Position numbers and translations under genes: made by a program. The notes below the pieces were generated by a model. That model was given only the letters and a program-made list of their open reading frames with translations, ran no database searches and had not been told where the DNA came from. Positions 27,183 through 29,534 of a stretch of 64,000 nucleotides of DNA are shown here, one piece after another; within the stretch, counting starts at the first letter, position 1, and each line of letters opens with the position of its first letter. This DNA is from Arcobacter ellisii (lineage in GTDB: Bacteria > Campylobacterota > Campylobacteria > Campylobacterales > Arcobacteraceae), in NCBI RefSeq assembly GCF_003544915.1, contig NZ_CP032097.1, positions 1,302,001 through 1,366,000 on the forward strand, read 5' to 3'.

Positions 27183-27806
27183 TTAATAAAATTTTGCTTT
27201 TATTCTATTTTCTAATTCAGCAACAGTCTCTATTGCATCTTTTTCATGATTTGAAAATCCCCAGTTTACTAAAACCGAATCAACTCCTGCATTTGTAGCA
27301 GCCATAATATCTTTATGCGAATCTCCAATTAGTTGAGCATTTTGTTTTTCAATATTGTGTTTATCTAAGATTTTATAAACCATTTCTGGATGTGGTTTTG
27401 GATTTTTTACACTGTCATATCCCAAAATAGTTGAAAAATATTTTGCTAAACCTACATGATTTAACATCTTATATGCATAAGTAGAGTTAGCATTTGTTGC
27501 AACAGCAAGTGTAAAATCACCTTTTAAATCTTCAATTAGTTTAGTAATTCCATCATAAACTACTAAATCACTTAAACAATGTTGATTGTAATACTCTTCA
27601 AAAAGTTTTGTTTGTTCTTGTGTAAACTCTTTTGTTCCATAAAAAAACTCTGCTGAATTTATAGTTGGGTCATTTACTTTTTCTAAAATATGATTTTTTT
27701 CTAATTTTTCAAAACCTAAATTTTCTCGTACATAATTTATAGTATTTGTAATTGCATATCCACTATCAATCAATGTTCCGTCCATATCAAACATTATCAG
27801 ACGCAT
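27183..27806 (-). CDS. HAD-family phosphatase (phosphoglycolate phosphatase-like)
   Basis: 207-residue haloacid dehalogenase hydrolase. Motif I is MFDMDGTLIDSG with the nucleophile aspartate. Motif II is VATNANSTYAYK, motif III has the lysine of VKNPKPHPEMV, and motif IV is QLIGDSHKDIMAATNAG. A helical cap sits between motifs I and II (about residues 15-85), as in Gph-type enzymes. The substrate could be phosphoglycolate or another small phosphate ester. A TATAAT at 27832-27837 on the same strand is its likely promoter. Confidence 0.88.
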   Translation of the reverse strand: MRLIMFDMDGTLIDSGYAITNTINYVRENLGFEKLEKNHILEKVNDPTINSAEFFYGTKEFTQEQTKLFEEYYNQHCLSDLVVYDGITKLIEDLKGDFTLAVATNANSTYAYKMLNHVGLAKYFSTILGYDSVKNPKPHPEMVYKILDKHNIEKQNAQLIGDSHKDIMAATNAGVDSVLVNWGFSNHEKDAIETVAELENRIKAKFY

Positions 27807-27837: not shown

Positions 27838-27912
27838 TTATGAAAAATATAAGTAAAAAGTTAAATATTTTTTAAATATAGGAGAAATTTTATCTTATTT
27901 TAATATTAGAAC

Positions 27913-28043
27913 TGTTACTATTCTTTCATAGGATATTTGTATTAAATCCTCCTACTACTAAATACATATGATTTTGTATCCTATACTCTGAAGTAAATTT
28001 GAATACGGGCTTTACAGTTTTTCCCTCTGTAAAGCCTTTTTTT
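27913..28043 (+). ncRNA. Candidate small RNA with anti-Shine-Dalgarno loop
   Basis: About 130 bases of plus-strand sequence with no ORF, preceded by a TAATAT -10 candidate (27901-27906) and closed by a strong terminator. The first half folds into a long hairpin: ATAGGATA (27928-27935) pairs with TATCCTAT (27977-27984), and inside it TGTATT (27938-27943) pairs with AATACA (27961-27966). The apical loop (27944-27960) contains TCCTCCTACTAC, which is complementary to Shine-Dalgarno sequences of the AGGAGGA type. The terminator loop is also pyrimidine-rich (TTTTTCCCT). The genes on both sides point away, so the terminator serves this RNA alone. I infer a trans-acting sRNA. Confidence 0.6.
28008..28043 (+). 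terminator. Strong rho-independent terminator of the candidate sRNA
   Basis: Ten-base GC-containing stem GGCTTTACAG/CTGTAAAGCC around the loop TTTTTCCCT, then seven T residues. It is the best terminator in the window, yet no coding gene ends here. Confidence 0.88.
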
Positions 28044-28107: not shown

Positions 28108-28611
28108 ATGAAAAAAATCTTACCTTTTTTTACAATAATTTTAATAATAGCAATAATTGTTGTAATATTTTTATCTATGTCAAATAGCAAACAAATGGTT
28201 GTTTTAAAAGAGGGTAATACAACTTTAACTCCACTTGAAATAGTTTTAGGAAAATATCAAGATAGTGATTGTGGAATGATAATCACTGATTTAACTTATG
28301 CCTCTCAAGTTGTTTCAAATGATGGAAAAACTTGGTTTTTTCACGACCACGGTGGAATGGCAAATTGGTTAAGAACAAAAGAGTTTAAAGATAGTGCAAA
28401 AATTTGGGTTATGTCAAAAGATACAAATAAATATATTGATGGAAGAACAGCTTTTTATAGTACAACAGAAGCAACTCCTATGAGATATGGATTTGGAGCT
28501 TATGAAAACAAACAAGATGGATTTATAACTTTTGAAGAGATGAGTTTAAGAATGCTAAGAGGTGAAACTATGGCAAATCCTGTTTATAAAAAAGAGCTTT
28601 TAGGTAAATAA
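28108..28611 (+). CDS. NosL-like membrane-anchored copper-binding protein
   Basis: About 167 residues. I start at MKKILPFFT, with GGGAG 5 bases upstream; a TTG 12 bases earlier is less likely. One N-terminal TM anchor (about residues 4-25) precedes a periplasmic domain with DSDCGMIITD and FFHDHGGMANWL. The Cys-Gly-Met and His/Met elements match the Cu(I)-binding region of NosL-type proteins. Its stop overlaps the next ATG by one base. A role in copper delivery to a periplasmic or membrane enzyme is probable. No nos genes are in view. Confidence 0.7.
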   Translation: MKKILPFFTIILIIAIIVVIFLSMSNSKQMVVLKEGNTTLTPLEIVLGKYQDSDCGMIITDLTYASQVVSNDGKTWFFHDHGGMANWLRTKEFKDSAKIWVMSKDTNKYIDGRTAFYSTTEATPMRYGFGAYENKQDGFITFEEMSLRMLRGETMANPVYKKELLGK

Positions 28612-29321
28612 TGGAAACAATTAGTATTTTAACAATTATTTCAATAGCTTTTTTAGGTTCATTTGGACATTGTGTGGGAATGTGTGGAGGAATTGTAATT
28701 GCTTATTCAAGTACAAAAATAAGAAGTGAATGGTCAAAACAAACACAAACAATTGCTCATCTATTATATTCATTTGGAAGAATTACAACTTATATGATTT
28801 TAGGAGCCTTATTTGGTCTTGTTGGTGGAGTTGTAACTTTTGATAATCTTACAAGTGGAATATTTTTACTAATAACTGGTTTTATGATGGTTTTAGTTGG
28901 ACTTTCACTTCTTGGGAAAATCAAGTTTTTAACAATGCTTGAACATAGTTGTTCAAAATCATCTTTTTATCAAAAAACATTCAAATCACTTTTAGGTTCA
29001 GACTCTTTATTTAGTTTTTATCTTTTGGGTATGTTAAATGGACTGCTTCCATGTGGGTTTGTGTATGTTTTTGCAATCACAGCTGCAAGTACAGGAAGTG
29101 CATTTTGGGGTGCGATAGTAATGCTTATTTTTGGACTTAGTACAATTCCCGCACTTTTTTCTCTTGGCTTTTTTGTTGGACTTTTCAAACAATCAAATCT
29201 TAGAGATTTATTTATCAAACTTGCTTCAATTTTAGTAATAGCTTTTGGAATATATATAGCTTATATCGGTTATGAATATTTAACAGACCCAACAAAAACT
29301 ATTTTAAATTGTCATATTTAA
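28611..29321 (+). CDS. Sulfite exporter TauE/SafE family membrane protein (UreH/DsbD-like)
   Basis: 236 residues with six or seven TM helices. The sequence GHCVGMCGGIVIAYS near the N-terminus and LNGLLPCGFVYVFAITAA in the middle hold paired cysteine motifs typical of the UreH/DsbD-type transmembrane domain that moves electrons or metals. Such proteins sit in cytochrome oxidase copper-assembly clusters in many Proteobacteria and Campylobacterota. Here it is coupled to the NosL-like gene, which supports copper handling; direct evidence is lacking. Confidence 0.82.
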   Translation: METISILTIISIAFLGSFGHCVGMCGGIVIAYSSTKIRSEWSKQTQTIAHLLYSFGRITTYMILGALFGLVGGVVTFDNLTSGIFLLITGFMMVLVGLSLLGKIKFLTMLEHSCSKSSFYQKTFKSLLGSDSLFSFYLLGMLNGLLPCGFVYVFAITAASTGSAFWGAIVMLIFGLSTIPALFSLGFFVGLFKQSNLRDLFIKLASILVIAFGIYIAYIGYEYLTDPTKTILNCHI

Positions 29322-29354: not shown

Positions 29355-29534
29355 ATGGTTAAAAAGAAAAAATACTTTAGTTTTTTTGGTATTTTAGCTG
29401 CAACTGTAAATAAGAAATTAGAATCTTTAAATTGTATGATTCTTTCTGTTTTATCAAAAGCACCAGCAATTACTAAAATATTGTTACATAAACAATTAAA
29501 ACCAATGAAATTATATTCAACAAATAACATATAA
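29355..29534 (+). CDS. 59-residue basic protein, function unknown
   Basis: Unannotated short gene with an excellent ribosome binding site (AAAGGAGGA, 4 to 5 bases before ATG). The product starts MVKKKKYFSFFGILAATVNK and continues with a second hydrophobic stretch around MILSVLSKAPAITKILL. It is strongly basic and probably membrane-associated. It lies 33 bases after the SafE-like gene and 23 before the B12-type receptor, on the same strand. I do not recognise it. Its spacing and site argue that it is translated. Confidence 0.6.
   Translation: MVKKKKYFSFFGILAATVNKKLESLNCMILSVLSKAPAITKILLHKQLKPMKLYSTNNI

Follow-up and report, generated by a model that had tools for sequence, protein, structure and literature searches.

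The question raised by this intergenic stretch of the Arcobacter ellisii genome is whether it encodes a regulatory RNA and, if so, which messenger the RNA would act on. The window, that is, the whole stretch of DNA analysed, comprises 64,000 nucleotides (G000:C1:1302001-1366000) of a 2.8-Mb genome, and an earlier note on it had proposed an orphan small RNA at 27913-28043 with a CCUCC loop and a strong terminator. Judged by its sequence, the unit, here termed sRNA1, is a real and conserved RNA family, and it is probably a trans-acting base-pairing sRNA that represses ccoN translation by pairing with the Shine-Dalgarno (SD) region. The unit and its neighbours are composed as follows.

27183-27806, minus strand: gene of a HAD-family phosphatase (Pfam), the divergent upstream neighbour, not constant among relatives
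27916-27921, plus strand: predicted -10 box TACTAT, inferred from the alignment, with TATAAT in 15 of the 30 aligned sequences
27928-28043, plus strand: predicted sRNA1 transcript of ~116 nt with two hairpins, from homologue alignment, consensus fold and covariance model
27928-27984, plus strand: hairpin 1 (arms 27928-27936 and 27976-27984), presenting the pairing loop, from fold and consensus
27947-27957, plus strand: loop seed UCCUCCUACUA, perfect complement of UAGUAGGAGGA in ccoN (within G000:C1:2518857-2518868, minus strand)
28007-28043, plus strand: intrinsic terminator, first of 349 in the window
28108-28611, plus strand: gene of a 167-aa protein without family match, downstream neighbour
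28611-29321, plus strand: gene of a DsbD_2-family membrane protein, downstream neighbour (Pfam PF13386, 1e-51)

Hairpin 1 with its large loop is followed by a linker and then by the terminator hairpin. The proposed unit was borne out, and both flanking genes (27183-27806, minus strand; 28108-28611, plus strand) indeed point away from it, whereas the proposed start at 27913 is probably ~14 nt too far upstream, to judge from the -10 box. Since the aligned -10 box occupies 27916-27921, the 5' end should be located at about 27927-27929. A sigma-70 consensus scan returned no plus-strand promoter at sRNA1, so the promoter call is one made by alignment. The absence of an ORF was confirmed as well, as no plus-strand ORF of at least 30 aa lies inside sRNA1. 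For the alternative that the unit is the mRNA of a small protein, only sporadic frames turned up, most of them starting with TTG. Since the 12 homologues examined, out of 45, have no frame of at least 8 aa starting inside sRNA1 in common, this alternative is hardly credible.

The downstream side is more constant: at 45 of 45 loci a DsbD_2 gene with the orientation of sRNA1 follows, with no more than one gene in between. This position just upstream of the operon would also suit a cis-acting leader or attenuator of the downstream DsbD_2/BtuB-like operon, in which the terminator is the regulated element. Such a leader is nevertheless quite improbable, because a TATAAT stands between the terminator region and the operon in 24 of the 30 aligned loci, the known riboswitch families give no match, and the conserved loop matches ccoN instead. 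The gene at 28108-28611 had been regarded as NosL-like, for which no Pfam or NCBIfam match was obtained; as the TonB receptor is moreover BtuB-like, a copper-related reading of the locus was dropped. Between the DsbD_2 gene and the BtuB-like TonB receptor, a small ORF of 59 aa (MVKKKKYFSFFGILAATVNKK...LKPMKLYSTNNI, window positions 29355-29534, plus strand) with the strong SD AAAGGAGGACAAA was observed. It has counterparts of 56-67 aa in 38 of the 42 sRNA1 loci compared and no Pfam or NCBIfam match reaching the cut-off, and is likely an unannotated conserved small protein.

The terminator is built as GGGCTTTACAG-TTTTTCCCT-CTGTAAAGCCT followed by seven T (28007-28043), and with -15.1 kcal/mol it ranks first among 349 hairpin-plus-T-run candidates, in keeping with its description as the best terminator in the window, although narrowly (next -14.8 and -14.2). 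A standard terminator scan with a loop limit of 8 reported none at 28007-28043, where the loop has 9 nucleotides; this loop, UUUUUCCCU, is also C/U-rich. The terminator stem covaries, since for 6 of the 9 modelled pairs one or more sequences have both partners exchanged with pairing kept. The covariance model has 19 pairs, of which 7 show two-sided changes: these 6 and, in hairpin 1, the innermost pair, a weak one. Both arms of that hairpin are nearly invariant in the 30 aligned sequences with almost no covariation, and for this reason they neither support nor refute its pairing.

The predicted fold of sRNA1 is better than those of 200 out of 200 shuffles (z -3.1) and leaves UCCUCCUACUAC unpaired, so that the main hairpin presents the CCUCC loop as the earlier note had stated. 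Across the 45 homologues, some of which were cut short at the T-run in the linker, the mean unpaired probability is 0.81 for the 10 loop bases vs 0.52 for the whole RNAs, and in about 11 of the 45 the predicted lowest-energy fold differs, with the loop partly paired. The 5' arm of hairpin 1 contains AGGA, through which the RNA might act as a protein sponge, for example for CsrA via GGA motifs; however, this GGA is tied up in stem pairing, and the homologues of G087, G088, G089 and G092 (genus g33) do not have it in the arm, which makes a sponge very improbable. Soon 3' of hairpin 1, CTTTTTTTGAA is present in 12 of the 30 aligned sequences (L012, L013, L014, L017, L018, L019, L021, L023, L024, L026, L032 and L034), where it could serve as a first terminator giving a shorter RNA of ~65-70 nt.

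Of 30 same-genus genomes, 28 gave an sRNA1 homologue by BLASTN (E < 1e-20); G025 (54% complete) and G028 (95% complete) did not. A covariance model built from 30 aligned sequences, the search proposed in the earlier note, found one copy each in 45 of 104 Arcobacteraceae genomes, comprising 29 of 31 in the own genus and 16 of 73 in other genera (g3, g6, g33 and g39). The four g33 homologues have the weakest scores (E 3e-5 to 8e-4) and the same gene context; their hairpin 1 arms are replaced (AAAATTAAAA / TTTTAATTTT type), while the hairpin is kept and the loop CCTCCTACTAC retained. A loop that varies among relatives had been named as evidence against the RNA, and the loop turned out to be among the most stable parts family-wide. 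A strict hairpin pattern matched 11 stretches of a named genome collection, all of them labelled Arcobacter or Aliarcobacter; the genome of the window itself, or one very close to it, may be missing from this collection.

No described RNA was known to match, and this agrees with the searches: Rfam 15, whose families include 6S, SRP RNA, tmRNA and riboswitches, gave 0 covariance-model matches, whether at the gathering score or with the E-value limit relaxed to 5, and none of the literature matches listed names sRNA1. Likewise, the matches listed from the open-licence literature include no paper dealing with a regulatory sRNA in Arcobacter or Aliarcobacter and none on an sRNA silencing ccoN. According to excerpts of Stav et al. 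2019 (PMC6429828), intergenic regions of Arcobacter sp. L were examined and most of the novel ones left unnamed, and the sRNA1 region may be among these. The word orphan had to be given up, as sRNA1 is spread over five genera and its loop motif recurs in another RNA of the same genome.

G000:C1 ~1790220-1790335 (L104 ~1921-2036), plus strand: sRNA2, with its own promoter and terminator

The second RNA, sRNA2, features its own TATAAT, the sequence ACTCCTCCTACTATATACAAGT and the terminator GGAAGCTTTTTATAAGCTTCC, and is followed by another HAD gene. It was recognised in 21 of the 25 genus genomes examined, after removal of L187 and L189 as chance matches, and it has no evident overall similarity to sRNA1 beyond the seed.

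As to the messenger, the loop complement TAGTAGGAGGAT was found with at most one mismatch at 11 sites of the own genome, against 2 for the reversed-pattern control. One of the sites is the sRNA1 locus, one is the sRNA2 loop and three are inside coding sequences, no more than 80 nt from their start; only one of the 11 is an SD before a start codon on the right strand, namely TTAGTAGGAGGAGATTGATG of ccoN, a gene ~1.2 Mb from sRNA1. ccoN encodes the catalytic subunit of cbb3 oxidase, and the target protein was assigned as CcoN by NCBIfam TIGR00780 (689 bits vs a cut-off of 583). Target prediction with the loop, another of the proposed checks, thus returned the ccoN SD region as best target, and the proposal that the loop pairs with SD regions is, through this match, the best-supported reading, whereas its comparison to RepG proved loose. 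Among 199 own-genome leaders, many of which were chosen for their TAGGAGGA, the sRNA1 loop reaches its lowest energy (-21.9) with ccoN and, equally, with the leader of an ORF whose start is probably wrong; with sRNA2, ccoN alone is lowest (-32.0; next -21.7; margin 10 kcal/mol). For the sRNA1-ccoN pair of G000 alone, 7 and 17 of 1000 shuffles pair as well, a weak result when taken by itself.

A CCUCC loop complements any strong SD, and sRNA1 could accordingly be a general anti-SD regulator, whose loop would resemble the 16S anti-SD and which would tone down a large set of strong-SD mRNAs, with ccoN just one of them. Among the sites examined, six own-genome TAGGAGGA sites besides ccoN have, by rule, a start codon at SD distance, one of which (L213) is probably inside a gene, while the other five precede genes for a 114-aa protein of no known family, a DUF1924 protein with CxxCH, a lactate permease, and a chemoreceptor-like and an SppA-like protein, the last two named by eye; the energy match to ccoN is, furthermore, modest in some species. 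A general role of this kind is still rather unlikely, as the bases beyond CCUCC are conserved and change with ccoN in two lineages, and the ccoN leader is also matched by a second block, which occurs in g6 and in sRNA2. The 114-aa gene (L142) had been called ferredoxin-like by eye, and no family match was obtained for it.

Specific pairing with ccoN, the preferred reading, can be followed across species. A perfect match of at least 9 nt over the SD is present in 37 of the 41 genomes having both parts, with a mean duplex energy of -23.7 kcal/mol across the 41; G087 was left out as a contig end led to a wrong start, and G119, G115 and G122 had no leader to compare. Cognate pairs beat randomly dealt ccoN leaders in energy (p 0.0006) and length (p 0.017), values that ignore relatedness. 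The loop changed from CUACUA to CUACAA at two places on the ccoN-region tree, once in the G012/G016/G022/G024 clade and a second time in G019, where sRNA1 and ccoN match perfectly over 15 nt, and both origins lie among species whose ccoN has UUGUAGG or a variant, not UAGUAGG. The covariation is partial, since in other species (G002, G003, G007, G009, G013, G023 and G027) ccoN changed and the loop did not follow, and the SD match is just 7-8 nt in G001, G005, G006 and G012. By rank, 25 of 198 leaders come before ccoN for G005, and 5-8 do so for G002, G007, G012 and G092.

In g6, 8 of 10 loops contain a second block UUAUAUACAAG (exact in 5, with one change in 3) matching CUUGUAUAUAA of the ccoN leader; the block TTATATACAAG is the complement of CTTGTATATAA there, and the six two-block homologues with a leader pair at -29.6 to -31.8 kcal/mol. 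For G118, 0 of 1000 shuffles of either partner pair as well. The second RNA combines the seed UCCUCCUACUA with UAUAUACAAGU, so composed that pairing with the ccoN leader is possible over ~23 bp. The predicted sRNA2-ccoN pairing amounts to -22 to -33 kcal/mol in 13 of 21 genomes and to about -17 to -21 kcal/mol in the remaining 8, which are without the TATACAAG block; clade-B sRNA2 does not have the second block, yet ccoN there keeps the matching sequence.

The ccoN leader is itself conserved, as fits a leader read by RNAs: of the 41 main ccoN leaders of sRNA1-bearing genomes, 40 retain CTTGTATA and 28 retain TAGTAGGAGGA, the others mostly having a clade-B variant in place of the latter. For comparison, 20 leaders were taken from the 59 genomes without detected sRNA1, 18 of the 20 lying outside the genus, and these contain TTAGTAGGAGGAG in 15 and CTTGTATA in 7 cases. 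Conservation of the SD block in such genomes points to undetected relatives, sRNA2 or another constraint, and something other than sRNA1 may conserve TTAGTAGGAGGAG. Second ccoN copies were observed at G021 L334, G029 L316 and G116 L323, 92-95% identical to the query. Those of G021 and G029 have different leaders in place of this one, and that of G116 keeps part of it in degenerate form (TATATAAAATTATTAGGAG) with weak pairing (-12.9), which suggests that, as far as the leaders go, the second copies are outside sRNA control. As a separate observation, nearly all of the main-copy leaders compared have two GTGAC copies, a few nt from each other, immediately before the CTTGTATATAA block.

From the computed conservation, hairpins, exposed loop, complementarity and conserved leader we infer a chain of events in which transcription, repression rather than activation, and the signal are the conditional links. 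The anatomy is that of a trans-acting, SD-blocking sRNA, being a free-standing unit with a terminator and a promoter (by alignment alone), and an exposed seed that is complementary to a ribosome-binding site and conserved in relatives. sRNA1 would be transcribed from its own promoter and ended at the intrinsic terminator, and the exposed loop of hairpin 1 would pair with the ccoN SD, by which ccoN translation would be repressed; as the loop matches the ribosome-binding site, the RNA probably turns down oxidase production. sRNA2 would pair with the ccoN leader too, and the trigger may be oxidative, nitrosative or Fe-S stress. The wider proposal, that two sRNAs with separate promoters converge on the ccoN leader as a post-transcriptional hub throttling cbb3 oxidase under stress in Arcobacteraceae, is put forward tentatively, as an idea with somewhat less than even chances. 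If true, the hub would be the first sRNA circuit described for Arcobacteraceae, as far as the open-licence literature shows, and a microaerophilic group would tune its oxygen-respiring enzyme at the translation step using two RNAs.

The suggestion of a stress signal comes from a candidate operator at the sRNA1 promoter.

27879-27897, no strand assigned: dyad TAGGAGAAATTTTATCTTA, candidate operator near the -35 region, with at most 2 mismatches to TAAGATAAANTTTATCTTA

Of 16 genus genomes, 11 have a dyad within this limit at the sRNA1 promoter. Genome-wide, it showed no enrichment over the reversed-pattern control, and since it is not commoner than this control it is a lead and not a finding. 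Similar sites in relatives lie upstream of sufB/nifU, thiol-peroxidase-like, ahpC/ferredoxin and gpx genes, and further sites of G000 are near desulfoferrodoxin and YgbA/Crp-type genes. Of 20 chosen sites, 10 precede genes for stress defence or Fe-S functions (sufB/nifU 5, thiol-peroxidase-like 3, ahpC/ferredoxin 1, gpx 1), and the other 10 fall within or close to genes unrelated to these. The presence of the candidate operator at promoters of the sufB/nifU, thiol-peroxidase-like, ahpC and gpx kind is the reason why oxidative, nitrosative or Fe-S stress is considered as the signal, and the link of the sRNA1 promoter to oxidative or Fe-S stress is only suggestive.

Apart from sRNA1, the dyad TAAGAYAAANTTTATCCTA was seen to recur before Fe-S assembly and peroxide-detoxification genes, in G000 at L090, L091, L093, L094 and L095 and in relatives at L243, L244, L245, L247, L250, L253, L254, L255, L256 and L259; these sites are a possible stress regulon. 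Autoregulation of Fur or Rrf2 via the dyad was discarded, as none of the 4 Fur-family and 3 Rrf2-family gene loci contains a site within 3 mismatches. A shared operator near ccoN (G002, G003, G005, G009 and G012) was rejected too, the sites being 137-150 nt upstream, inside the apparent terminator of the preceding gene, which we take to be smpB. By eye, GTTAATTAATTGTTAAT, from ccoN promoters, and TTAACAATTAATTAACA, from some of the sRNA1 promoters, may resemble an ArcA box.

C-rich or CCUCC single-stranded segments covering SDs are familiar from FsrA of Bacillus subtilis, RyhB, LhrC and the alphaproteobacterial cuckoo RNAs, and the targets of FsrA and RyhB include respiration or iron proteins. 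All of these differ from sRNA1 in bacterial group and anatomy. Among RNAs linked to the same oxidase, the HRC-8-4 motif of Rhodobacterales is, in the excerpts of its description (PMC8632094), an intergenic candidate associated with cbb3 oxidase genes and mainly situated between ccoNOQP and ccoGHIS, whereas sRNA1 lies far from ccoN.

RepG of Helicobacter pylori, to which the earlier note had likened sRNA1, uses its terminator loop to pair with the G-repeats of tlpB and hp0102, according to the excerpted source (PMC8295292). The two are alike as Campylobacterota sRNAs with a C/U-rich loop that pairs, in sRNA1 by prediction, with purine-rich 5' leaders, the terminator loop of sRNA1 having this composition as well. 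The likeness is loose, however, since on the same excerpts (PMC8295292) the RepG pairing loop is that of the terminator while the ccoN-matching loop of sRNA1 belongs to the upstream hairpin 1, and the best target of this main loop is the SD UAGUAGGAGGA with no homopolymeric G-repeat; RepG is also encoded between hp1043 and hp1044, and sRNA1 beside other genes. IsrR of Staphylococcus aureus is, in the excerpts of its report (PMC12607789), a stress-responsive, Fur-regulated RNA that represses respiration and has a predicted site over the cydA ribosome-binding site. IsrR is Fur-repressed, has many iron-related targets and addresses a bd instead of a cbb3 oxidase, and it resembles the role proposed for sRNA1 as a respiration-repressing sRNA with a predicted site at the ribosome-binding site of a terminal-oxidase gene.
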